A stretch of 64,000 nt of DNA from Komagataeibacter medellinensis NBRC 3288 (GTDB lineage: Bacteria > Pseudomonadota > Alphaproteobacteria > Acetobacterales > Acetobacteraceae). Shown one piece after another: positions 9,948-24,754 of the stretch. The number at the start of each line of letters is the position of its first letter. Position 1 is the stretch's first letter. Below the pieces are notes generated by a model. It had not been told where the DNA came from, ran no database searches, and was given only the letters and a program-made list of their open reading frames with translations. The stretch lies in NCBI RefSeq assembly GCF_000182745.2, contig NC_016027.1, positions 3,047,501 through 3,111,500 of the forward strand, in the 5' to 3' direction. The position numbers and the translations under genes are program-made.

Positions 9948-12900
9948 GTGTACATGACTAAGGCGGTAGCCGCCAGAATTACCGAATTGATGGATCAGAT
10001 CGGTACAGGTCGGGTGCCTGCGTGGGCGCCGATTGTGGTCGGTGTGGCCATGATGAGTTTTGTAGGTTCGATCGCCCTCCTGCCCGACCTGCAAGGCATG
10101 ATCTCGATCGGGACGGTTCTGCTCCTGCTTGTGCTGAACAGGTTCAAGGGGCGTGGCATCACCATCTTTCTCATGATGCTCTCCCTGCTGGTTTCCCTGC
10201 GCTACCTAGTATGGCGGTTGACATCCACCATCGAGTTCCATGGGTGGATACAGTCCTTTCTGGCTATCCTACTTCTTCTGGCTGAAGTTTATGCGCTCGT
10301 AACCCTGTGTCTGAGCTATTTCCAGATGGCATGGCCGCTGCGGCGCAAGGAACATCCTCTGCCCGAGGACCCCGCGACCTGGCCGAATGTGGACGTATAT
10401 ATCCCATCATATAACGAAGATCTCGATCTTGTCCGTTCTACCGTTCTGGGCGCGCTGGAACTGGACTGGCCGGAAGATAAGCTCAATGTCTACATCCTTG
10501 ATGATGGGCGCCGGGTTACCTTTCGCGATTTCGCGCTTGAATCGGGGGCAGGGTATATCATCCGCTCGGAGAACAGCCACGCCAAGGCAGGTAACCTCAA
10601 TCACGCGCTGAAGATAACCGACGGCCAGTTCGCCGTTATCTTTGACTGTGACCACGTGCCTACCCGTGGCTTCCTCAAGAGAACCATCGGCTGGATGATT
10701 GCCGATCCCAATCTTGCCCTGCTCCAGACGCCGCACCATTTCTATGCACCTGATCCCTTCCAGCGCAATCTCGTGTCTGGTGCCCATGTCCCGCCGGAAG
10801 GCAACATGTTCTATGGCCTTGTCCAGGATGGGAATGATTTCTGGGATGCCACCTTCTTTTGTGGTTCGTGCGCCGTTATCCGCCGTTCTGCCGTTCTGGG
10901 CATTGGTGGTTTTGCTACGGAAACCGTGACGGAAGATGCGCATACCGCGCTTAAGATGCAGCGCAGAGGGTGGCGGACCGCTTACCTGCGCGAACCGCTG
11001 GCAGGTGGGTTGGCGACCGAACGCCTGATCCTGCATATCGGGCAGCGCGTGCGTTGGGCGCGCGGCATGCTGCAGATCATGCGGCTGGATAATCCCCTGC
11101 TGGGGCGCGGCCTGCGCTGGGAGCAGCGGTTGTGCTACCTGTCCGCCATGTCGCACTTTCTGTTTGCCATCCCGCGTGTGACTTTCCTTATCTCCCCGCT
11201 GGCCTATCTGTTTTTGGGAGAGAACATCATTGCGGCCTCGCCGCTGGCCATCAGTGTGTATGCGCTACCGCATATTTTCCATTCCATCCTGACTCTCTCC
11301 CGCATTGAGGGGCGGTGGCGCTATTCCTTCTGGAGCGAGATTTACGAAACATCGCTGGCGTTATTCCTCATCCGCATTACCATCGTTACCCTGCTTCAGC
11401 CCCACAAGGGTAAGTTCAACGTGACGGACAAGGGCGGCCTGCTGGAAAAAAGCTATTTCGACTTTAGTGCCGTCTACCCCAACGTTATCCTGGCCAGCAT
11501 CCTGTTCATTGCGTTCCTGCGTGGGGTATTTGGTATTGTCTGGCAGTTCCATGACCGCCTGGCCCTGCAGTCCTTTGCGCTTAATACGCTGTGGGTGGTC
11601 ATCAGCCTCATCATTGTACTGGCTTCCATTGCGGTGGGGCGTGAAACACGCCAGACCCGCTCTGCTCCGCGTATTACGGTGACGCTGCCCATCAGGGTTT
11701 CCGATCGCGAAGGCAGGGGCTTTGCCGCGCATACACACGATATTTCGCTTGGTGGGTTGGGGATTGATATTCACTGGCCTGTCGATGTGCCCGCGCCAGA
11801 TGAAGTTATGGTGGAATATGTAAACGAACGGGACCGGATTCATACCACCGTTCCCGCACGTGTCCTGTCCATGGGGGAACGGTCCATGCGCCTGCAATGG
11901 GTGCGGCGTGACTTGCAGGATGAAAGCCAGATCGTGGATATGGTTTTTGGCCGCAATGATGCCTGGGCAAACTGGGCCGATTTCGAGCCTGACCGGCCCC
12001 TGCGCAGTATTACCATGGTAATCAGAAGTATTGGTGGCCTCTTTAAGTGGCGGGCGCGTGAGGCTCCACGCAATGTGGCAGACGAAGAAGAGGCTGCTGT
12101 GCCTGTTGTGGAAGAAAAACTGGAGAAACAAAGCCTCGTGCTGAAACCTGTTCGACGTAGCGCCCGTAATGGTGCTGCCGCATCCGCTGCCTTTCTTGTG
12201 GCCTTTGCCGCCCTCTGTCCGGTAGCGATGGCGCAGGTGCAGCCCGCCACCGCATCCGCCGCCATGGGTGACCAGGAAGGTGTAAGCGCCGAAACCCCGT
12301 TCGGTGACAGTAATACCGGTACCGTGCCCGAAGCTGTGCCGACGATTGATCAGGCCGTGGCCGACCGGATCAGTGACACGGAAGTGACGCGCACCCTGTC
12401 ATTCCGCAACCTTGGCGCCACGACCGGCCCGCTTACCCTGCGCGGGTATTCCCCCCTGCAGGGGCTGGACGTGATCGTGCCGGCCAACCGTGTGGTCACT
12501 CACGCGAAGCTGACGATTTCCGGGGCGCTTTCACCCTCCCTGCTGCCTGAAGCCAGCGCCGTGACGGTAACGCTGAACGAGCAGTATATCGGCACGATCA
12601 AGGTTGACCCCGATCATCCGCAGTTCGGGCCGCTGACGTTCGATATCGACCCGCTTTATTTTACTGGTGATAACAAGCTCAATTTCCGTTTTGCGGGTGA
12701 ATACAGGCGTGACTGTAACGATCTCTTCAATGAGATCCTGTGGGCGCGTATCTCTGACATGTCGCAGATAACGCTCACGACTGTCCGCATAGCCCCCGCA
12801 CGCAAGCTGTCGCGGCTACCCGCGCCCTTTTTTGACCCCAACCTGCGCACGACCCTGCGCGTGCCGATGGTCCTGCCCGATACTGCTTCAACAAGCAGTC

Positions 12901-14519
12901 TCAAGGCTGCGGGTCTGGTGTCATCGTGGTTTGGCAAGATTGCTGATTTCCGCAAGCTGTCTTTTCCCGTCTATACGGCGATCCCGGCTTCGGGCAATGC
13001 GGTCGAGGTGGGGGAAAACCTGCCTGTTGATGATGCAGGCACACGACCGCGCGGTCCCATGCTGGCGGAAATCGCCAATCCCAATGATCGCTGGGGTACC
13101 ATTCTGGTCGTGACCGGGCGCAATGCGCAGGAAGTTGAGGTCGCAGCGCGTGCGCTTGTATTCGCGACGGATACGCTGGGTGGTGTCGCGTCAAAGGTTG
13201 TGGAGGACGTGTCGCTGGAGGCACGCCAGCCCTACGATGCACCTGCCTTTATACCGATAGACCGTGTCGTACGTTTTGGCGAACTGGTAGGGGCCGCAGA
13301 CCTACAGGGTGGCGGGTTCTCGCCTGAAGGGATGACGCTGCCTTTCCATCTTCCGCCCGATCTTTATACTTGGCGTGGCCGTCCTTTCCTGATGGACATG
13401 TGGATCCGTGCCCCCGGTGGCCCGGTGGTGGATCTTGAGACATCGCGCGTCGATGTCAGCCTCAACAACAACTACCTGCAGAGCTATACGCTCTCGCCGC
13501 CGGGGCTGTGGCAGCGCTGGTCGCAGCGCATGGTCAACCTGCATGCCGGTGCGGTCGGGCATACCACGGCGCTGCCGACCTGGCTGCTGTTTGGGCAGAA
13601 CCAGTTGCAGTTCAAATTCGATGCCCGACCGATCGACCGCGGAGCCTGCCGCCGCACTCCCGGGGACATCCATATGAGCGTGGATTCTGATTCCACGCTC
13701 GATTTCCGCCGTGGCTACCATTTTGCCGAGCTGCCCAACCTGTCCTACTTCGCTGAAGCGGCCTTTCCCTTCTCCCGCATGGCTGACCTGTCTGAAACGA
13801 CGGTAGTGCTGCCATCGCAGATCAATGCCGGCACGGCTGGCGCCTTCCTGGACCTGATGGGATTCTTTGGTGCCTCGACATGGTATCCGGCATCAGGTGT
13901 GCAGATCGTGACCGCTGACCAGATTGAGGCCAACCCGCCTGCGGGAGACATCATCGTGCTGGGTACGGCAGCGCAGTTGGGTAATGCCACGCGGCTGCTG
14001 TCGCACTCGCCGTATGTCATCAAGGATAGCCATATCCAGATTGGTGAGCATATGGGCCTGCAGGGCATCTGGTACCTGTTTCAGGATCGTGACCATGCTG
14101 GCCTGAAGAATGGCGTGACCGCAAAGCTCAATGCCCCGATCGTTGAGGCGGGACTGATGCTGGCGGCCCAGTCACCCTATGATCGCGCCCGCTCCATCAT
14201 TGCCTTTACGGGTGATACACCGGAGCAGATTCATGATCTTGTTCTCAGCCTGCGCAACAAGACAGACCTGCCTTCATTGCAGGGTGATCTGGTCATCAAG
14301 AATGGCGACCGGTTCACCAGTTACCGCACGGCGCCTACTTACACCGTAGGTTCGTTGCCGCTTTGGGTGCGTGCCGACTGGTATCTGAGCCGTCACCCCT
14401 TTGCCCTTTATCTGACCGGTCTTGTCGGGGTAGGACTGGCGGCCCTGGGTATAAGGGGATGGCTGAGGCACCTGTCGCGCAAACGTATCGAGAAGGAGGA
14501 ACTGACCGGAGAACTGTAA
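9948..14519 (+). CDS. bcsABII: fused cellulose synthase BcsA-BcsB (type II)
   Basis: A 1523-residue fusion of catalytic BcsA with periplasmic BcsB, as in type II cellulose synthases of the K. xylinus group. BcsA has multiple membrane helices, the GT2 core with 'DVYIPSYNED' (about residue 148), 'ILDDG' (about 184), 'FDCDH' (DxD, about 234), 'TEDAH' (about 328) and QRVRW (QxxRW, about 366), then a PilZ domain. The PilZ c-di-GMP motifs are RSAPR (about 571) and 'DISLGGLG' (about 598). A hydrophobic segment near residues 740-760 leads into BcsB, which ends with a membrane helix (about 1480-1500). The enzyme polymerises UDP-glucose into beta-1,4-glucan under c-di-GMP control. Start is GTG 9948 or ATG 9954; an AGG 11 bases upstream favours GTG. 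The frame is intact. Confidence 0.95.
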   Translation: MYMTKAVAARITELMDQIGTGRVPAWAPIVVGVAMMSFVGSIALLPDLQGMISIGTVLLLLVLNRFKGRGITIFLMMLSLLVSLRYLVWRLTSTIEFHGWIQSFLAILLLLAEVYALVTLCLSYFQMAWPLRRKEHPLPEDPATWPNVDVYIPSYNEDLDLVRSTVLGALELDWPEDKLNVYILDDGRRVTFRDFALESGAGYIIRSENSHAKAGNLNHALKITDGQFAVIFDCDHVPTRGFLKRTIGWMIADPNLALLQTPHHFYAPDPFQRNLVSGAHVPPEGNMFYGLVQDGNDFWDATFFCGSCAVIRRSAVLGIGGFATETVTEDAHTALKMQRRGWRTAYLREPLAGGLATERLILHIGQRVRWARGMLQIMRLDNPLLGRGLRWEQRLCYLSAMSHFLFAIPRVTFLISPLAYLFLGENIIAASPLAISVYALPHIFHSILTLSRIEGRWRYSFWSEIYETSLALFLIRITIVTLLQPHKGKFNVTDKGGLLEKSYFDFSAVYPNVILASILFIAFLRGVFGIVWQFHDRLALQSFALNTLWVVISLIIVLASIAVGRETRQTRSAPRITVTLPIRVSDREGRGFAAHTHDISLGGLGIDIHWPVDVPAPDEVMVEYVNERDRIHTTVPARVLSMGERSMRLQWVRRDLQDESQIVDMVFGRNDAWANWADFEPDRPLRSITMVIRSIGGLFKWRAREAPRNVADEEEAAVPVVEEKLEKQSLVLKPVRRSARNGAAASAAFLVAFAALCPVAMAQVQPATASAAMGDQEGVSAETPFGDSNTGTVPEAVPTIDQAVADRISDTEVTRTLSFRNLGATTGPLTLRGYSPLQGLDVIVPANRVVTHAKLTISGALSPSLLPEASAVTVTLNEQYIGTIKVDPDHPQFGPLTFDIDPLYFTGDNKLNFRFAGEYRRDCNDLFNEILWARISDMSQITLTTVRIAPARKLSRLPAPFFDPNLRTTLRVPMVLPDTASTSSLKAAGLVSSWFGKIADFRKLSFPVYTAIPASGNAVEVGENLPVDDAGTRPRGPMLAEIANPNDRWGTILVVTGRNAQEVEVAARALVFATDTLGGVASKVVEDVSLEARQPYDAPAFIPIDRVVRFGELVGAADLQGGGFSPEGMTLPFHLPPDLYTWRGRPFLMDMWIRAPGGPVVDLETSRVDVSLNNNYLQSYTLSPPGLWQRWSQRMVNLHAGAVGHTTALPTWLLFGQNQLQFKFDARPIDRGACRRTPGDIHMSVDSDSTLDFRRGYHFAELPNLSYFAEAAFPFSRMADLSETTVVLPSQINAGTAGAFLDLMGFFGASTWYPASGVQIVTADQIEANPPAGDIIVLGTAAQLGNATRLLSHSPYVIKDSHIQIGEHMGLQGIWYLFQDRDHAGLKNGVTAKLNAPIVEAGLMLAAQSPYDRARSIIAFTGDTPEQIHDLVLSLRNKTDLPSLQGDLVIKNGDRFTSYRTAPTYTVGSLPLWVRADWYLSRHPFALYLTGLVGVGLAALGIRGWLRHLSRKRIEKEELTGEL

Positions 14520-14627: not shown

Positions 14628-15296
14628 ATGAATGCTCTTCTCGCGGGTCTTACGCTTCTGATTATCGGCGATAGCCACGTAACCTTCAAAGACTCCCTTC
14701 TTTCAGTTCTGCCAGATGAATTTACCAAGCGGGGTGCGAAGGTCGTAACCTATGGTGTCTGTTCTTCCATGGCGGCAGACTGGGTTGTGCCCAACCCCAA
14801 TAACGGGTGCGGTGCGGCAGAGCGTATTGGCGATGCACCGATTGGCGCACCTAATATGAAGCCGACCTCTCCGCCGCCCATAAGCGACCTGATTGCCAAG
14901 TGGCACCCCAATGTTGTCATGGTCATCCTGGGTGATACCATGGCTGCCTATGAACAGAAGGCTGTCTCGAAGGACTGGGTGGACGAACAGGTCAAAACCC
15001 TGACCTATACCATCGGCAAGACCGCATGCATCTGGGTTGGCCCGACCTGGGGGCAGTTCAGCCCGCGTTACGGCAAAACCGACCAGCGCACGACGGAAAT
15101 GGCAACCTTCCTGAAGGGCGAAGTGGCGCCGTGCACCTATGTTGATGGCACGGCGCTGCTCAAGCGGGGCAGTGTCAACACCATCGATGGCGTTCACGCA
15201 ACGCCGGCAAGCTACAAGGTGTGGGGTGACGCGATCGTGCAGGCAACGCTGCCCGAGCTTGAGAAGATGAAAGCAACTCCTGCGGCAGGCCAGTAA
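14628..15296 (+). CDS. bcsX: BcsX, SGNH-hydrolase-like protein of the type II cellulose operon
   Basis: A 222-residue protein between bcsABII and bcsY, the position of bcsX. It has SGNH/GDSL esterase signatures: 'IIGDSH' with Ser16 near the N-terminus, and a C-terminal 'DGVHATP' giving the Asp187-xx-His190 pair. An intermediate 'VMVILGDTMA' segment (about residue 103) holds the third block. A hydrophobic N-terminus (LLAGLTLLI) is too short for a clear signal peptide. Paired with an acyltransferase-3 gene, it resembles acyl-transfer pairs in other polysaccharide systems, and a role in acylating or de-acylating cellulose is often proposed but inferred here. The start is well supported by GGAGGA 7 bases upstream. 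It lies 108 bases after bcsABII. Confidence 0.85.
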   Translation: MNALLAGLTLLIIGDSHVTFKDSLLSVLPDEFTKRGAKVVTYGVCSSMAADWVVPNPNNGCGAAERIGDAPIGAPNMKPTSPPPISDLIAKWHPNVVMVILGDTMAAYEQKAVSKDWVDEQVKTLTYTIGKTACIWVGPTWGQFSPRYGKTDQRTTEMATFLKGEVAPCTYVDGTALLKRGSVNTIDGVHATPASYKVWGDAIVQATLPELEKMKATPAAGQ

Positions 15297-15310: not shown

Positions 15311-15343
15311 CGGAAGCATCCCTGACGTATCGGGGGGCTTCCG
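15311..15343 (+). promoter_or_regulatory. hairpin between bcsX and bcsY
   Basis: Arms cggaagc (15311-15317) and gcttccg (15337-15343) form a 7-bp stem, extended inward by a short C/G pairing (ccc with ggg). It ends 3 bases before the upstream-most possible bcsY start (TTG 15346) and contains the only G-rich Shine-Dalgarno-like stretch for it. It has no U tract. It may set relative expression of bcsX and bcsY or act as an RNA processing site. Confidence 0.4.
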
Positions 15344-15345
15344 TC

Positions 15346-16540
15346 TTGCCGGATACGGGCGCCATACGTGGAAATTTGTTGATGCTGCAAATAAAAGACG
15401 CCGCCCTCGCCTCCACCTCCAGCAGATGGCGGGACATACTTGAGAAAGATTTCTTTCCCAAAAACCGCCGGCGCGATATCGATGGTCTGCGTGGCCTCGC
15501 CATTGCCCTTGTTGTGCTGTTCCATGCAGGTTGGCTGCAGGGGGGCTTTGTCGGGGTTGATATCTTTGTGGTGATCTCGGGCTATTTCATGGGCCGTTCA
15601 GCACTCATGCAGCATCCGTTCCAGCCCGTGCGCTTTGTCTGTCGCAGGCTTTACCGCCTGCTCCCTGCACTGGTGTGCATGATTGCACTGGTCTCGGCAG
15701 GTATGCTGTGGTGGGTCCTGCAGAGCGACCGGGCCGATATCGCGATCAATGGCGCCTATGCGCTGGTATACCTGTCCAACATCTGGGCATGTCGGTTATT
15801 TCCAGGGGCAGAGTATTGCCTACCCGTTCCTGCATACGTGGTCGCTCTCGCTGGAAATGCAGTTTTATACCATCATCTTCCTCATGGCCCTGCTGCTGCC
15901 GTTGACAAAACACCGCAAACTTGTCCTGACGGGCATCTTCGCGGTTTCGGCAGCCTATTGCGGGCTGAGCTATTTCAAGGGTGATACACAGGCCTACTAC
16001 AACATATTCGACCGGTTGTGGCAGTTTTCCCTTGGCACGATGATCTGGATCTTTCCGCGCCCGCAGTTCAGCAAGGTGGTTGCGAACATCATCTATGCGG
16101 CAGCCCTTGCGGTGATCGTGGGGTCGGGCCTGTTTTATACACTCCAGTTTGCCTGCCCGTCTTACATGATGGTTTTCCCCTGCGTTGCCGTGGCCGTGAT
16201 CATCATGCTGCCCGAAACGGAAATTGGCCGGTTGTGCCTGGTGCCGATTTCCCCGCTGGGTGTCATTTCCTACTCGGTCTATCTTTGGCACTGGCCGGGC
16301 ATTGTGGTGGCGAGCTATCTTCTGTCGTTCCAGGTGCAGGGGCTGACCATGGCGGCAGTTCTGGGCATTGTTCTTGTGATCAGCCTGCTCAGCTACCTGT
16401 TCGTGGAACGGACCGGCCTGGATTACGAAGACCGGGTGACGCCTGCCGTGCGTAACCGTGGGGCAGCCATCCTGGTGGGGGGCTGCATGACGTTGGCCGC
16501 GATCCTGTTCTATATTTCCTTTGTGTCTCGTGTTCATTAG
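15346..16540 (+). pseudogene. bcsY: BcsY acyltransferase-3 family protein, frameshifted
   Basis: BcsY is a multi-pass membrane O-acyltransferase (acyltransferase 3 family). The first frame gives the N-terminal family start 'RRDIDGLRGLAIALVVLFHA', with the catalytic-type His, and 'GVDIFVVISGYFM', and continues to 'ALVYLSNIW' (about 15786). It then turns into non-family sequence and stops at 15984. The rest of the protein, from 'YFQGQSIAYPFLHTWSLSLE' through further helices to the stop at 16540, is in the next frame. One extra base (or two missing) between about 15781 and 15815 explains this. The start could be TTG 15346 or ATG 15382. Either the strain has lost BcsY or the read has an indel error. 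Neither half alone would be functional. Confidence 0.85.
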
Positions 16541-16547
16541 GACATAC

Positions 16548-16910
16548 ATGACAAGACCGTCCCTTGCCGGTGGCTGGCGGCATTGTGCTCCGGCATGGCG
16601 CAGTGCGCCTGCGGCCTGGGTCATGGTGCCTGCGTCGTATGCGCCATCTCCCGCCCGGTTGACCGGGGGGGGGCTGAAAATTGTCTGCGGCATGGTTGCC
16701 GGCGTCATTATGTCGGGAGAGGTCGCGCGCGCGCAGTCTGCATGGACGCCAGCGCCCGATAGCGCGCCATCATCTTCCAGCGGTACCACGCAGATTACGG
16801 TTACCCCCAGCGCAGACCAGATAGCGGCTAATGCGCACCTGGCGCATGCGGCAGCCGTGCTGGAACTGCTGCTGAACGTAACCGGCCGTTTGAGGCCGCC
16901 TTATGATTGA
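16548..16910 (+). pseudogene. bcsCII: BcsC (type II) 5' fragment, cut off by IS66
   Basis: The first 110 codons of bcsCII (16548-16877), after which the frame runs into the IS66 left end and stops at 16910. BcsC is the periplasmic TPR scaffold and outer-membrane pore for cellulose export. The fragment has a long basic N-terminus, a hydrophobic signal segment (about residues 43-58) and a likely cleavage site after 'EVARAQ' (about residue 64). It ends with the first TPR helix, 'ANAHLAHAAAVLELLLN'. The start ATG lies 8 bases after the bcsY stop. Removing the element and one target copy restores the frame into the 3' part. Confidence 0.92.
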
Positions 16911-16932
16911 GGATTGTGACTGGTAACTTACC

Positions 16933-16968
16933 GTCGTTAACGACGTCGTTAACGACGTCGTTATTGAC
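16933..16968 (+). repeat. three tandem 12-bp palindromes ahead of tnpA
   Basis: GTCGTTAACGAC, itself a perfect palindrome, occurs at 16933-16944 and 16945-16956. A third, imperfect copy (GTCGTTATTGAC) is at 16957-16968, followed by a partial GTCATTT. The array lies within the IS66 left end, 19 bases before the tnpA start. Tandem palindromes there could be operator sites for an element-encoded or host protein, or could form cruciforms. The function is inferred. Confidence 0.85.
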
Positions 16969-16986
16969 GTCATTTGAGAGGTAAGA

Positions 16987-17346
16987 ATGACCCAGGAAAT
17001 CCTGATTGGCGTTGAACGCCGCCGCCGCTGGTCGGATGAACGGAAGCTGGCGATACTGGCTGAAGTTGGTGTGGATGGAGCAAGTGTATCGGATGTGGCA
17101 CGTCGACATGACCTGACCCGCCAACATCTTTACCAATGGCGGACGTCATTCCGTCAAAGACTATCTTCCCCAGATCAGTCTGTGGCGTTTGTTCCTGTTG
17201 CTTCAGTGACGACACCTGCTGTGGCATCTGGCGGTGATCCTGACGAACTGGCCATAGTGCTGCGCAATGGCCGTAGTATCAGGGTGACGGGACATCCTGC
17301 CGAAGATCTTCTGGCCCGGGTCATCCGGATTGCGGAGACGGCATGA
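16987..17346 (+). CDS. tnpA: IS66 TnpA, helix-turn-helix accessory protein
   Basis: A 119-residue protein with the typical IS66/IS3-orfA-type helix-turn-helix: 'RRRRWSDERKLAILAEV' followed by 'VSDVARRHDLTRQHLYQW' (about residues 38-55). The C-terminal half is less conserved, with a short beta-rich segment. It is required with TnpB for transposition in studied IS66 elements. A GAGAGG sequence precedes the ATG by 5 bases. Its stop overlaps the tnpB start in ATGA, indicating coupled translation. Confidence 0.9.
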   Translation: MTQEILIGVERRRRWSDERKLAILAEVGVDGASVSDVARRHDLTRQHLYQWRTSFRQRLSSPDQSVAFVPVASVTTPAVASGGDPDELAIVLRNGRSIRVTGHPAEDLLARVIRIAETA

Positions 17347-17690
17347 TTGGCGTGGGCAACGGCGTGCGTGTCTATCTGGCCTGCGGGGTGACCGATATGC
17401 GCAAGGGCATATCGGGTCTGGCAGCACTGGCACAGGACGTGCTGCGTCAGAACCCGACATCAGGGGCGCTCTTTGCCTTTCGTGGTCGCCGTGGGGACAG
17501 GATCAAGCTTCTGATGTGGGACGGTCAGGGGTTCTGTCTTTATTACAAGGTGCTTGAGAAGGGACGTTTTCCATGGCCGTCTCCGGCAGAGGGCGTTGCA
17601 CGCCTGACGACAGCACAGATGGCCATGCTGTGGGAAGGCATGGAGTGGAGACGCCCTTCCTGGTCTGCACCACCGTCTCGCGTGGCCTGA
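17343..17690 (+). CDS. tnpB: IS66 TnpB (Orf2 family)
   Basis: A 115-residue protein of the IS66 Orf2 family, recognisable from 'VYLACGVTDMRKGISGLAAL' near the N-terminus and 'GDRIKLLMWDGQGFCLYYK' in the middle, then 'LEKGRFPWP'. It is an accessory transposition protein of unknown biochemical activity. It begins 4 bases inside the end of tnpA and is intact. Confidence 0.92.
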   Translation: MIGVGNGVRVYLACGVTDMRKGISGLAALAQDVLRQNPTSGALFAFRGRRGDRIKLLMWDGQGFCLYYKVLEKGRFPWPSPAEGVARLTTAQMAMLWEGMEWRRPSWSAPPSRVA

Positions 17691-17753
17691 TTTTTATGGC
17701 GTGAGAGTGCAGAACATTTTGAATTTTCTTAGGTTTTCTGCTATTTTTTCATA

Positions 17754-19364
17754 ATGACGTCTGCACCTGCGGTCCTGCCTGATGATCCGGATACCCTGAG
17801 GGAAATGATTGTTTCCCTGCAGACCGAAGTGGCTCGGCTTTCTGCGTCAGCCCGTGCGTATGAAGCTCTTGTCCAGTCTCTCAAAATCCGGATCGCACGT
17901 CTTCAGAAACAGAAATTCGGGGCCAGTTCAGAAAAGATAGACCGTGAGATTGAACAACTCGAACTGCTCCTTGAAGATGTAAAAATCGCCATCGCGGCAG
18001 CCGATCCTTCTCCTGATATCAGGGAGCATGATGTCAGCGATGATGCACTCTCTCCCCCACGGCAGCGTGGCAAACCAAAGGTTTCTGACACGACACCACG
18101 GGAGCGTATTGTTCTCGACCCAGGTGAGGCCTGTCCTGCCTGTGGCGGTCCCCTGCGTCTTGTAGGCGAAGATGTCACCGAAATACTGGACTTTATTGCG
18201 GCAAAACTGAAAGTTGTCGAAACGGCACGGCTGAAGAAATCCTGCCGTCACTGCGAAACACTGGTGCAGCCTGAAGCACCGTCGCGCCCTGTCCCACGGG
18301 GGATGGCTGGCACCGGGCTTTTAGCCCATATCCTGGTCTCGAAATTCGATGACCACATTCCGCTTTATCGTCAGAATGAGATCTTTGCCCGTCAGGGTGT
18401 GGACATTCCCCGTTCAACCCTGATCGACTGGTGTGGTCAGGCCGTTGCCGTTCTGCGTCCTCTGACAGATCTGATCCGTCAGGATGTCGTAAAGGCAGAC
18501 CTGCTACATGCTGATGATACACCCATCCAGGTTCTTGACCCCCGTCTGCGTCAGGCTGGCAAACCCCGGGGCGTGAAGGAAGGGCGGATCTGGAGCTATC
18601 TGCGCGATCCCCGCCCATGGGGAGGGAGTGATCCGCCCGCCGTGGCCTACTGGTTCTCTCCCGATCGCAAGGGGATCAATCCCCAGACCCATCTGGCACA
18701 GTTCCGGGGCATTCTGCAGGCTGACGCCTACGCCGGGTTCAGGGATCTGTATAAACCAGACGCAACAGGAACCGTGCACGTGCGCGAAGCGGCCTGCTGG
18801 GCTCATCTCCGCCGGGCCTTCCATGATGTCTGGAAGGGCAGTGATTCGACAATCGCAAGGGAAGCACTTGAACAGATCGGAGAGCTCTACGATATCGAGC
18901 GCCAGATCACCGGACACCCGGCCCCGTATCGTCTGGCTGTCCGACAGGAACAAAGCCGCCCCCGTGTCACAGCATTCCACGCATGGTGCGAAACACAGCT
19001 TGCCCGTATCCCTGGAAAGGGGGAACTGGCAAAAGCGATCCGTTATGCGCTCAACCGGTGGAAGGCCTTTACCCTGTTCCTCGAAGATGGTCGTGTCGCC
19101 ATCGACAACAATCCTGCCGAACGCGCCATACGGCCCGTATGCGTGGGGCGAAAAAATTATCTCTTTGCCGGATCCGACACCGGGGGCGACAACATCGCTG
19201 ATGCCATGACGCTTATCGAAAGCGCAAAACTCTCCCGGCTTAATCCGCACGATTACCTCGCCGACGTCCTGGCCCGTATCAACGAGCACAAGATCAACCG
19301 GCTCCACGAACTGTTGCCATGGAACTGGAAACCCGTGAATACACTGCACAGACAGGCCGCATAA
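17754..19364 (+). CDS. tnpC: IS66 TnpC DDE transposase
   Basis: A 536-residue IS66 transposase. In order: a coiled-coil/leucine-rich N-terminal region (about 20-70); the IS66 zinc-finger-type segment with 'CPACGGPL' and 'SCRHCETL' (about 125-165); then the DDE core with 'LLHADDTPIQVLD' (first Asp), 'LQADAYAGFRDLY' (second Asp) and a C-terminal 'DNNPAERAIRP' (Glu). The C-terminal IS66 tail '...HELLPWNWK' is present. The length is normal and the frame intact. Its last 46 bases overlap the start of the open frame that continues into the bcsC remainder. Confidence 0.93.
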   Translation: MTSAPAVLPDDPDTLREMIVSLQTEVARLSASARAYEALVQSLKIRIARLQKQKFGASSEKIDREIEQLELLLEDVKIAIAAADPSPDIREHDVSDDALSPPRQRGKPKVSDTTPRERIVLDPGEACPACGGPLRLVGEDVTEILDFIAAKLKVVETARLKKSCRHCETLVQPEAPSRPVPRGMAGTGLLAHILVSKFDDHIPLYRQNEIFARQGVDIPRSTLIDWCGQAVAVLRPLTDLIRQDVVKADLLHADDTPIQVLDPRLRQAGKPRGVKEGRIWSYLRDPRPWGGSDPPAVAYWFSPDRKGINPQTHLAQFRGILQADAYAGFRDLYKPDATGTVHVREAACWAHLRRAFHDVWKGSDSTIAREALEQIGELYDIERQITGHPAPYRLAVRQEQSRPRVTAFHAWCETQLARIPGKGELAKAIRYALNRWKAFTLFLEDGRVAIDNNPAERAIRPVCVGRKNYLFAGSDTGGDNIADAMTLIESAKLSRLNPHDYLADVLARINEHKINRLHELLPWNWKPVNTLHRQAA

Positions 19365-19399
19365 TCAAGGCGGCCCAGAGCGGCCGGTTACTGCTGAAC

Positions 19400-22300
19400 C
19401 AGGGCTATTACTGGCTTGGGCAGCACAACCTGCCCAAGGCGCGCGAGACGATCCAGCGCGCGCTTTCGATCGAGCCGGACAACAATGAAGCCATTTTCCT
19501 ACTGGGCCGAGCACAGATGGCTGAGGGTCAGCCCAAGCTGGCTTCTGCTACACTTAACCGACTGATCCACAATGGCGGTGCGGCGGGACTGGTGTCTGAC
19601 CTCAAGGCCCAGATAGAGGCCGGACCGGTGGACCCCAAGGCCCTGGCGGAAGCTCGTGCCCTTGTGGCTTCGGGCAAGATGATGCCCGCGATGTTCAAGT
19701 ACAAGGCCCTGTTCAAGAACGGCGACCCGCCACCAGACCTGGCCATGGAGTATTACCGCGTGCTGGGAGCCACCATTCTTGGCTATCAGGAAGCGCGCAC
19801 CAAGCTTGCCGCATGGGTGGCGCGCAACCCGCGCGATCTGGATGCGAAGCTGATGCTTGACCGGATTCTGACCTATCGCGCCTCCTCGCGTGACGAGGGG
19901 CTGGAGGGGTTGCGTCAGCTTACCCGCTCCCATGCTTCCGCCGGGATACGGGATGGGGCCATGGCCGCCTGGCGTGACGTGCTGCTGTGGGAGCCGATTA
20001 CCGGCCCTACCATCCCGCTCTATAACGAGTGGCTTGGCATGCACCCGGACGACAAGGAAATCATTGATCGCCTGCACAAGGCGCAGGAAACGCAGAACAC
20101 CATTGATGCCGCCAATTACCGCCAGCATGGCTACGAATTGCTGGCAGGCAGGAACCTGGAAGGTGCGGCTGCGGAGTTCCATCGTGCCCTGGCCATCAAT
20201 GCGCATGATGCGGATTCGCTTGGTGGGCTGGGACTTGTGGCGCAGGGCCGCCAGCAGGCAGCTCTGGCCCGGCAGTATTTCCAGCAGGCCATGGAGATGG
20301 ACCCGGATTCCGCTCCTCACTGGCGCGCAGCCATCAAGGCGATGGAAAGCGGTGGTGGTGGCATGGACCCGCTGGTGGCACGTATCATACAGGCCATTAA
20401 TTCCGGGCGGTACGATGCGGCACAGACGGACCTTGCGCAACTGGCTCACAGGGGCAATACGGTTACACTCATGTCCCTGAAGGGCATGCTGGAGCGCAGG
20501 CAGGGCCATCTGGCCGAAGCCGAGCACCTTTATCGTGAAATCCTGCGCCGCGTACCGGGCAATGCCGATGCCCTGTTCAACCTGGGCGGCATACTGATCG
20601 AAACCGGCCGGGAGCCCGAGGCGCAGGATATTATCGTGCGGCTGCACCATGTGCGTCCCGACCTTGCGCGCCATCTGGAAGTAGCCGATCTTTCGGCTCA
20701 GTCGGACCGGACTCGCAATAATAACGAAAAACTCCAACTGCTGAACCGCGCCCTGGCCATGGCACCTGCGGATCCGTGGGTCCGGCTCAAGCTGGCGCAT
20801 GCGCTGGATGAAGCAGGTAATCATGCACAGGCCCAGGCCGTCATGGATGGTGTGACCAGTGGGCGCTCCGTTACGGCCGAGGACCTGCAGGCCGCGATCA
20901 TCTATGCCATGGGCCGCCATGACCTAGCCCGTGCCGAACAACTCATGGCACGTATGCCAGCGGGTAGCCAGAGCCCCGGAATAGCGCGCGTGGCCGAACA
21001 GATTGAACTGGCCCGGCGCATACAGGAACTCAACCGCGCACCGCGCGCGCCCAATGCGTTGCTGATGGCGCTGGCTGACCGGCCCGATCCTACGGGTGAG
21101 CGCGGCATGCGTATTGCCAATGCGCTGCTTGACCGCCATGCCCCGCAGGATGCACAGCAGGTACTGGCAGAGGAGGAGCGGCTGACCCAGCCGCCCCAGC
21201 CCTCCCAGCTTCTGGCCTATGCGGGTGTCTACCTGCGGTTGCATTCCTCCATTGATGCCACGCGCTGCCTTAATGGCTTTGATGCCATTGCCCAGGTCCG
21301 GCCTGCCGATATAACGGCGGACCAGCGTGAGATCCGTAACCAGATCGCAATCGGTCTTGCGATCATGACAGCAGATGGGTTTGACCGTTATGGCCAGACC
21401 GCACAAGCCTATCAGGTGCTGGCGCCAGTGCTGCAGGCGCATCCGGATTCGGTTGAGGCGCATCTGGCCATGGGGCGTGTCTACCAGACCCGCAACCTGG
21501 CCCGGCGCGCGCTGGAAGAAGACCAGGTTGCCCTGCGCCTCAAGCCGCACAACATATATGCCCTTGCCGCAGCCGCGCGCGATGCGGGTGGGCTGCACCA
21601 GATGGCAGCGGCCAAGGCCTATTCCACCCAACTGGCGCAGGAAGATCCTGACGGCCCGATGAGCTGGGAAGTCCGTTCCGATATCGAGCGGATCGAGGGC
21701 AATACCCGCCTGCAACTGGTTGATGTGGAACATGCGCGCCACGCGCAGTGCACGCTTGATGGCGAAGGCATCTGCGCAGAGCCGCAGCATGAAAGCTTTC
21801 TGCCCGATTATCGCTGGCCCGAGATTGACAGCAACTATATCAACCTGCACGGCGCGACCCTTCCCGCGAGCTATCACTACATTCCCGAAGACGACGGGCC
21901 GGAGGCCATGGATCGCCAGATCGTCTACCTGCGCGATTCCGTCTCACCCCAGATCGATGCCAATACTTTCGTACGCAGCAGGACGGGCATTGCGGGGCTA
22001 GGGCAGCTTACGGAGTTCGCCGTTCCGATTACGGGCACGTTGCCGTTTGAATCGTGGGAGCACAGGCTGTCCTTTTCAGTCATTCCTACGTTCCTGTTCA
22101 CGGGTAACCCGCTGGGCAATTCCTATTCGGAGCATGAATACGGCACCGATGCCGTCAATAAGCCGATGCCCGGTTACGCGCACCATAATTATATGCAGGG
22201 CGTGGGGCTGAGCCTGAATTATGTCAATCACTGGTTTGCAGCTGATGTAGGGTCCTCACCGCTTGGTTTCCCCATTACCAATGTGGTGGGCGGGGTAGAG

Positions 22301-23020
22301 TTCTCGCCCCGTCTGACCCGCAACCTTGGCCTGCGCATCAGCGGTGGTCGCCGCATGGTGACCGATAGCGAACTGTCTTATGCCGGTGAGCGTGACCCCG
22401 GCACGGGCAAGTTGTGGGGTGGGGTAACGCGCATGTTCGGCCATGGCGCGCTTGAATGGTCCGAGCCAACATGGAACGTGTACGCAGGCGGTGGCTTTGC
22501 CTATCTTGGCGGCACGCATGTCATTGGCAATACCGAAGCAGAAGCCAGTGCGGGTGGCAGTGCCACGGTGTGGCAGATGCATGACCGACAGTGGTTGCGG
22601 GTTGGGCTTGACCTCATGTATTTTGGCTACAAGCGCGATACTTACTTCTTTACATGGGGGCAGGGCGGTTACTTCTCTCCGCAGCAGTATTATGGTGCTA
22701 TGGTGCCGGTCGAATGGTCGGGTCATAACAAGCGGTGGACGTGGTTCCTGCGGGGGGAGGCGGGATTTCAGCATTATCATAGTAATGGTGCCCCGTACTA
22801 CCCTAAAGATTCTAATCTTCAGGCGCTTTCTGTTGCAGATCAGCCGGATTATTATGGTGATGAGGGTGCAAGCGGCCTTGCGGGCAATGTGCACGGTCGT
22901 ATTGTTTACCAGTTTACCCATCGCCTGCGTGTGGGGATGGAGGGCGGCTATAGCCGCGCAGGCAACTGGTCTGAAACCAGCGGCATGTGGATGGCTCACT
23001 ATGCTTTTGATGGTCAGTAA
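19400..23020 (+). pseudogene. bcsCII: BcsC (type II) 3' remainder, TPR and beta-barrel parts
   Basis: The remaining 1206 residues of bcsCII after the IS66 insertion; with the 110-codon 5' piece the intact protein would have 1316 residues, normal for BcsC. It opens with 'QGYYWLGQHNLPKARETI' and 'IEPDNNEAIFLLGRAQ', the first TPRs. Many TPR repeats follow to about residue 900 of the full protein, then the BCSC C-terminal outer-membrane barrel (about 950-1316). The frame is open upstream into the IS from an ATG at 19319, so a chimera of 27 IS-encoded residues plus most of BcsC could be made. It would lack the signal peptide, so export to the periplasm is not expected. No other lesion is seen. Confidence 0.92.
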
Positions 23021-23077
23021 GACGGCAGGAAATATTCAGACTGGTAATTGCCCAATAATATCGGGGAACTGCAAGGT

Positions 23078-24754
23078 ATGAAAACATGCACAAAACTTCT
23101 TGCCTGCATGACAGTACTGGCCGTAGGCAACGGTGTTTCCCTGGCCATGGCGGCACAGTGCCCGCCCGTGGATCATGACGGAGAGACCTGCGTTCCCGCG
23201 CGTGATGGCGCAAGTGAGGGACTGAACCGCCCACCTGGTCATAATGACGATGCCCGCCATGGCTATGCAGCAGGTGATCTGTGGCAGGCCGGTGGCCATG
23301 CCTGGCGCGCGGTATCGGTTGCACCCGGCGCCGCGCGGTGGGAGGGCGAGCAGACCACATATCCCGCCGACAGCTTTGGCCGTCATACCATTTTTGCCGG
23401 TGGGCCGACGCGCATGGTCAGCGGTTATAGCGGCCCAGCCGTAGATATCGAGACGGTCGTGGGGGGTCAGCAGGTCACGGCCACCCTTGTCATCCACCCC
23501 GATGGCACGCTGGATACCGATACGCTGCATCGCGCCCTGTCCACGCGTGATGGCGGAACCTTTGCCACCGTTACCCGCGTTTATGACCAGTCGGGCCACG
23601 GCAATCACATCACGGCCACGCCGGGCCAGCATGTGGTGCATATCGGTGCCGTTCAGGTGGCGGGGCAGGAAACCCTGTCGTGGGGAGAGAATAATGGCCC
23701 CGGCGGTTTTGTGCTGCCACAGGGGGTGAAGGTTGCGGGTAATGGCTTTTTCTTTGGCACGACCGGCACCTATGCCTCATCCAATTCCGGTTACGCGGCT
23801 TTTCCCGTCCCGGTCATGCTGGGAGGGGGCGGGCATGAATTCAAGGTTTTCACGGGTAGCTATACGTTTGATGGTTTTGTACATGTGGCTGACCCGCGCA
23901 GTCCCGACCAGCGCACGAACCTTGTCATGACCAATTCCCCTGCGGCCTTTGGTGTAAACGCCACCCCCACGGGCTACACGCTTGAGTCCGGCAATGCCCG
24001 TGTCCAGCATCCCGGCATGCTGAGCAATGATGCGCTGACGGGCGGCTATATCGGCTACAATGCCGATGGAGGGGAATGGTTCGTTCAGGGGCGCAATACC
24101 GGGCAGTGGACGGGTATCGTCATTGCCGACCATACGGCAACACCTGGCGAAGTCGCGAATTTTCAGGCATCTGCTGCGGTACTGGGTAACTACATGCCGC
24201 AGTTACGCAATGTTGTTGTTGCGATCGGCGATAGCCGGACGGAAGGTTTCCGCCTGAGCGATGGCACGAACTGGCCTTATCTCATGCAGCGTTTCGCACG
24301 CTACCAGAGCTATAATTTTGCCGTCTCCGGTGCGACCAGCAGGCAGATGCTAGGCATGGTGCCAGCTGCCGAGAGCGTAGCAGCAGGGCCAGGCCGACGC
24401 GTTGCCGTAGTTTTTGGCGGGTATAACGATCACCTGCCGTTCAATCACATTGCAACGGATGACACGGTCCGTAACCTGTCACAGATTGTCAGCAGGCTGA
24501 AAAAAGCGGGTTACCGGGTCGCCATCCTTGATGAGGCCACGACACAGGGCGCGCCAAGACAGGCGGTGCATGCAGCCATCCAGAACGGGACGATTGCCGC
24601 CGATATCGAGATCGATCCGTTCGCCCCCGGTGAAAAGCTGACCAATGTGCTGGACCAGACAACGTGGGATGCCGATACGACCCATCCCGCGCAGGCCGGG
24701 CACCAGATATTGGCTGATGTGATCTGGAGCCGCATCCAAGGCTTGCTGCGCTAG
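23078..24754 (+). CDS. secreted two-domain SGNH hydrolase with arabinofuranosidase-like N-domain
   Basis: A 558-residue protein directly after bcsCII (57-base gap). An N-terminal signal peptide (hydrophobic 'LLACMTVLAVGNGVSLAMA') is followed by a beta-rich domain resembling the lectin-like arabinofuranosidase-B catalytic domain, with 'GYSGPAVDIETVVGG' and 'VTRVYDQSGHGNHITATPG' (about residues 120-190). The C-terminal SGNH hydrolase domain has 'VAIGDSRTEG' (Ser386), 'VFGGYNDH' and Asp533-xx-His536 in 'DTTHPAQAGHQ'. It is likely a periplasmic or outer-surface esterase or glycan-binding enzyme that acts on cellulose or its acyl groups; the position suggests this, the sequence does not prove it. 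It may correspond to the ORF of about 569 residues reported after bcsCII in A. xylinum (from memory). ATG 23078 is preferred over an upstream in-frame start because it begins the signal peptide. Confidence 0.78.
   Translation: MKTCTKLLACMTVLAVGNGVSLAMAAQCPPVDHDGETCVPARDGASEGLNRPPGHNDDARHGYAAGDLWQAGGHAWRAVSVAPGAARWEGEQTTYPADSFGRHTIFAGGPTRMVSGYSGPAVDIETVVGGQQVTATLVIHPDGTLDTDTLHRALSTRDGGTFATVTRVYDQSGHGNHITATPGQHVVHIGAVQVAGQETLSWGENNGPGGFVLPQGVKVAGNGFFFGTTGTYASSNSGYAAFPVPVMLGGGGHEFKVFTGSYTFDGFVHVADPRSPDQRTNLVMTNSPAAFGVNATPTGYTLESGNARVQHPGMLSNDALTGGYIGYNADGGEWFVQGRNTGQWTGIVIADHTATPGEVANFQASAAVLGNYMPQLRNVVVAIGDSRTEGFRLSDGTNWPYLMQRFARYQSYNFAVSGATSRQMLGMVPAAESVAAGPGRRVAVVFGGYNDHLPFNHIATDDTVRNLSQIVSRLKKAGYRVAILDEATTQGAPRQAVHAAIQNGTIAADIEIDPFAPGEKLTNVLDQTTWDADTTHPAQAGHQILADVIWSRIQGLLR

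Follow-up and report, generated by a model that had tools for sequence, protein, structure and literature searches.

The bcsCII gene of the type II cellulose synthase operon of Komagataeibacter medellinensis NBRC 3288 occupies positions 16548-23020 of the 64,000-nucleotide stretch of DNA analyzed here (the window; contig C3, 3047501-3111500), and it is interrupted after codon 110 by an IS66 element. Two questions arise from this locus: what the insertion means for the type II operon, and whether it accounts for the lack of cellulose in this strain.

Anatomy of the Inserted Element

The insertion splits bcsCII into an N-terminal part of 110 codons (16548..16877, + strand), presumed from similar N-termini in relatives to encode a signal sequence and a linker, and a distal part (19400..23020, + strand), which is open for 1206 codons and encodes the TPRs and the BCSC_C barrel, as indicated by Pfam and by homologues. 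A complete IS66-family element of 2,514 bp (16878..19391, + strand) lies between them and is flanked on both sides by perfect 8-bp copies of TGCTGAAC, found on the + strand at 16870..16877 (left copy) and 19392..19399 (right copy). The preliminary description had placed the element at codon 110, called both copies of the duplication perfect, counted the frame as 110 + 1206 codons, and stated that the N-terminal signal was cut off from the TPR and barrel parts. Its coordinates were right to the base and its frame arithmetic was correct, and the insert does lie between these two parts, the signal sequence being presumed.

Members of the IS66 family carry three genes, tnpA, tnpB, and tnpC, in one direction, produce an 8-bp target duplication, and have terminal inverted repeats starting with GTAA. 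The same three-gene layout was found by Pfam in the bcsCII insert, with tnpA (HTH_Tnp_1; 16987..17346), tnpB (TnpB_IS66; 17343..17690), and tnpC (17754..19364) all on the + strand, the last encoding the transposase with a zinc finger, a DDE domain (DDE_Tnp_IS66) that is complete, and a C-terminal element. The 25-nt terminal inverted repeats are 84% complementary, and both ends start with GTAACCGGCCG, so that inverted ends of the GTAA type accompany the 8-bp duplication. By the best explanation, an IS66-family element was inserted by ordinary transposition at codon 110 of bcsCII, leaving the target duplication behind. A 12-bp tandem unit was also observed at the left end of the element (16932-16974) and may be a marker of its local lineage.

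Copies of the Element in This and Other Genomes

The whole genome (3,513,191 bases in 8 contigs) was searched for further copies. When the best 15 of 37 and the best 40 of 61 first-look candidates were scored, at least eight copies of the 2,514-bp element were found, all 100% identical to the query, and each of the eight full copies was bordered by a perfect 8-bp duplication. Seven distinct flank sequences were present among the eight, two copies having the same flank. In two cases (L074 and L078), a transposase-like gene that is itself repeated carries the element at an identical position, which might reflect a nested element that was copied as a unit. Another one (L075, 2172-4685) lies just upstream of a gene that resembles, by eye, a MucR/Ros-type regulator, and may alter its expression.

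Copies that are 99-100% identical but 2,502 bp long were found in two other genomes of the genus (G010 and G013), and the six full copies examined there all had one 12-bp unit fewer near the left end. The longer form common to the eight copies in NBRC 3288 is consistent with one local burst of transposition, and their identity, together with the duplications at 8/8 copies, fits a burst that was recent, although gene conversion could also have made the copies alike. The insertion in bcsCII is probably recent, and the same two observations (at least eight identical copies, 8/8 with 8-bp duplications) support the earlier proposal of a recent inactivation. Among the best 15 of 43 plasmid records, relatives of the element that were 81-96% identical were found in plasmids of Acetobacter, Komagataeibacter, and Novacetimonas, but none of these 15 records covered 80% of the query; the strain's own genome may lie outside this search.

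Insertion Site in Related Strains

The insertion site was then compared with uninterrupted bcsCII alleles, a check that had been proposed with the preliminary description. Of the 14 named loci returned from the genome collection, 13 were examined, a Stutzerimonas locus being left out. The gene was continuous across the junction in all 13, K. rhaeticus LMG 22126 among them, the frame upstream of the junction point was open for 92-176 codons to the next stop in each of them, and the residues LELLLN/QGYYWLG (the slash marks the junction) were uninterrupted in nine. In a second set, of 18 relatives from the genus, the junction was likewise uninterrupted and the frame open in 16. The two remaining genomes were G012, which is divergent and gave no pattern match, and G007, whose best match was a fragment on a 4-kb contig. 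In G012, and in G002, which is one of the 16 with a continuous junction, bcsCII was broken further on. The named and genus sets overlap in part, so their counts are not additive, and the relatives come from other species. With a perfect duplication at 8/8 copies and an unbroken gene in 13/13 named loci, chance does not account for the observed structure.

These comparisons also bear on the quality of the assembly. Identical repeats, here at least eight, are a classic cause of misassembly, and one of the copies might have been misplaced at bcsCII. This is extremely improbable, since this copy, like each of the other seven, has a perfect, site-specific 8-bp duplication, relatives possess a single uninterrupted gene to which both flanks align, and a disruption of the gene has been reported by published authors, though perhaps from the same assembly.

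Predicted Consequences for BcsCII

The distal part of bcsCII retains a complete BCSC_C domain (profile positions 2-336 of 336, Pfam), shows 86% identity at the protein level with its K. rhaeticus counterpart in an aligned search, and has the order of TPRs followed by a barrel that characterizes BcsC. However, the N-terminal signal that a BcsC protein should have joined in-frame to the TPR part is separated from it by the IS66 element, if the presumed signal sequence is accepted as such. The 110-codon stub runs about 10 codons into the element before a stop. The type II outer-membrane exporter is thus likely to be inactivated by the element, with a loss of type II export, because the stub ends within IS66 and no export signal is apparent in the distal part. 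We infer this loss of BcsCII function from the structure of the interrupted gene, and the claim made beforehand that type II export is stopped stands as a prediction.

An ORF of 1233 aa (19319..23020, + strand), which probably arose by chance, begins at an ATG inside the right end of the element and continues in frame through distal bcsCII. The distal part could in principle still be made, either as this chimera or by transcription reading out of IS66, and keep some function. We consider this very unlikely, as no signal sequence was apparent by eye in the leader encoded by IS66, and an outer-membrane barrel lacking one should not reach its place. Moreover, the four promoter-like matches detected in 16300-23200 were not clearly above those in shuffled sequences (mean 2.8, sd 1.8), and a single one, at 18085-18112, was located inside the element. 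Inactivation of the exporter by the insertion remains the preferred reading.

Frameshifted bcsY in the Type II Operon

The gene order of the type II operon, bcsAB-bcsX-bcsY-bcsC, is present in the window, but bcsY and bcsC are both broken. The first gene, bcsABII (9948..14519, + strand), is a fused cellulose synthase/BcsB gene, open for 1523 codons, in which Pfam detected BcsB, glycosyltransferase, and PilZ domains. It is followed by bcsX (14628..15296, + strand), which is also open (222 aa) and for which the bcsII stretches of three relatives contain matches of 82-91% identity; no Pfam match was obtained for its product. The third gene, bcsY, encoding an acyltransferase (15334..16540, + strand, start approximate), is split between two frames according to tblastn, alignment, and Pfam results. 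By tblastn, the BcsY proteins of K. rhaeticus, K. xylinus, and K. swingsii matched the window in two frames, the change from one to the other falling at about 15779-15789. When four relatives were aligned with the window, a frame-shifting gap of 8 bases was seen in the window sequence. In the second frame, the Pfam match to Acyl_transf_3 starts no earlier than position 119 of 326. By comparison, the place of bcsY is occupied by a single open frame of 397-429 codons in 13/13 named loci, its identity as bcsY being established by tblastn for three of them. A homopolymer sequencing error was considered as the origin of the frameshift and ruled out, the gap being a clean one of eight bases relative to the four relatives.

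The insertion in bcsCII is, therefore, not the sole lesion of the type II operon: bcsY is frameshifted too, which the preliminary description had missed, and NBRC 3288 does not have a single-gene defect in this operon. The bcsY deletion is also the part of the present observations that was not found reported in the literature searched, which included parts of PMC6559206 and PMC9318390 and excluded the strain's primary papers. In strain ID13488, bcsX and bcsY are given as 421 bp apart (PMC6559206). This spacing is larger than in the relatives analyzed here and hints at a shortened bcsY in ID13488, although the start codons found here do not fall exactly at that place. Downstream of bcsCII, a GDSL acylhydrolase-like gene (23048..24754, + strand) is perhaps, by position and domain only, the gene called bcsZ in PMC9318390.

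Other Cellulose Loci and the Published Cause of the Missing Cellulose

Elsewhere in the genome, the type I operon encodes its BcsB domain in two separate frames (profile positions 4-419 and 429-606), and bcsCI is a single open frame of 1379 codons. At the bcsIII locus (L070, 4815-10909), the C-terminal part of bcsAB and the N-terminal part of bcsC are missing: matches to the window BcsAB stop at residue 915 of 1523, and those to the distal BcsC begin only at residue 85, in agreement with the bcsIII deletion described in PMC6559206. Beside bcsAB4, we also observed a frame of 1198 codons in which methylase domains of the Eco57I/MmeI-like kind were detected (L071, 2441-6034, - strand).

In the literature, the loss of cellulose in NBRC 3288 is ascribed to a lesion of bcsBI, and changes inside this gene are described as having restored cellulose in revertants of the strain (PMC8855687, PMC7347698). 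Since the published defect and its reversion are both in bcsBI, and bcsBI is split here, the bcsCII insertion is probably not the explanation for the lack of cellulose, which should not be read from bcsCII; this part of the preliminary description was not supported. The main operon for crystalline cellulose is reported to be other than type II (PMC9318390, PMC10106347). The polymer made by type II is regarded as secondary and possibly acylated, an acylation that according to PMC9318390 was never confirmed, and expression of bcs2 in strain ID13488 was about 100-fold below that of bcs1 (PMC6559206).

The opposite reading, in which the insertion of IS66 in bcsCII was the causal event for the cellulose-negative phenotype and was selected in vinegar culture, has in its favor that the element sits in an export gene, and that loss of cellulose genes, above all of bcsC subunits, recurs across strains (PMC6528568, PMC7347698). 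We nevertheless give it hardly any credence, given the attribution of the NBRC 3288 revertants to bcsBI, the split bcsBI in this genome, and the K. hansenii ATCC 53582 bcsAB2 deletion, which left the pellicle phenotype unchanged, did not significantly change the yield, and increased fiber strength (PMC10106347). This last result is transferred only imperfectly to the operon studied here, because K. hansenii BcsAB2 is closer to Bcs4 than to Bcs2 of K. medellinensis (PMC10106347) and because fiber strength did change. The insertion had also been presented as the known route by which cellulose-negative variants arise. IS elements are indeed known for this, but the case in PMC6559022 concerns IS1031, a different element.

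A hot spot for IS66 shared with a mutation-sensitive word of bcsCI in K. oboediens (PMC7347698) was also considered. Eleven letters of this word are in common with the right IS66 junction; the full word is present in 6 of 19 genomes of the genus, not including this one, and the 11-letter word occurs six times in the strain's own genome, one occurrence being the right junction. The idea was rejected, the likeness being taken as a coincidence, because the published bcsCI mutations lie near codon 713 and not codon 110 (PMC7347698).

Altogether, we hold with high confidence that an ordinary IS66 insertion inactivates bcsCII, that it is one of several lesions in the secondary cellulose loci, others being the bcsY and bcsIII deletions, and that the published cause of the lack of cellulose is bcsBI and not this insertion. 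The insertion is real but ordinary, a lesion of a secondary locus and not a new switch.

Comparison with Known Cases

The insertion in bcsCII is already known in print for NBRC 3288. The gene is said to be disrupted by an insertion sequence in PMC6528568, citing Matsutani et al. 2015, and is listed as disrupted or incomplete in PMC9318390. Six reference letters or words for NBRC 3288, taken from the eight rows of Table 1 in PMC9135448, were compared with the genome: four agreed, and those at 19286 and 96323 did not, the one at 96323 perhaps being given on the coding strand. Strain, gene, and type of lesion are the same, and the case of PMC6528568 is apparently the very same insertion, although the parts of that paper covered here neither name the family of the element nor mention a target duplication, a number of copies, or a lesion in bcsY. 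In the literature found, the IS family was not named for this gene and strain, the available part of PMC9318390 using IS66 once, for K. xylinus LMG 1515.

A second hit on the type II operon was detected in the genus genome G013 (contig C1; locus L086, 7771-10272), in which a 99%-identical copy of the element splits bcsABII near residue 1196-1197 (window numbering) and is flanked by the target duplication GGTTGACC, unlike that in bcsCII. As gene, site, and 8-bp duplication all differ, this copy represents an independent insertion. Strain ID13488 is reported to have a stop in bcsAB2 (PMC6559206). It is conceivable, though on balance doubtful, that domesticated Komagataeibacter are losing the type II operon in parallel, through a deletion in bcsY and an IS66 element in bcsCII here, through a nearly identical IS66 element in bcsABII of another genome, and through the stop in ID13488. 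If so, this would suggest that cells grown for vinegar or in the laboratory can do without the type II product, which we infer to be dispensable, or pay a cost for it.

Three other known cases resemble the present one in part. In K. xylinus E25, an element of the IS1031A type lies in bcsCII (PMC9318390), so that the same gene is hit with the same outcome, but in another species and by an element that is, by name, distinct from IS66. In K. xylinus LMG 1515, an IS66-family element in bcsABII (PMC9318390) shares family and operon with the insertion described here, as does the copy in G013, but its gene and site differ, which makes it an independent insertion. Finally, IS1031 in cellulose-negative K. 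xylinus/hansenii (Coucheron 1991, as cited) shows, as here, mobile elements inactivating genes of cellulose production, but the element is not IS66 and the main cellulose phenotype was affected.
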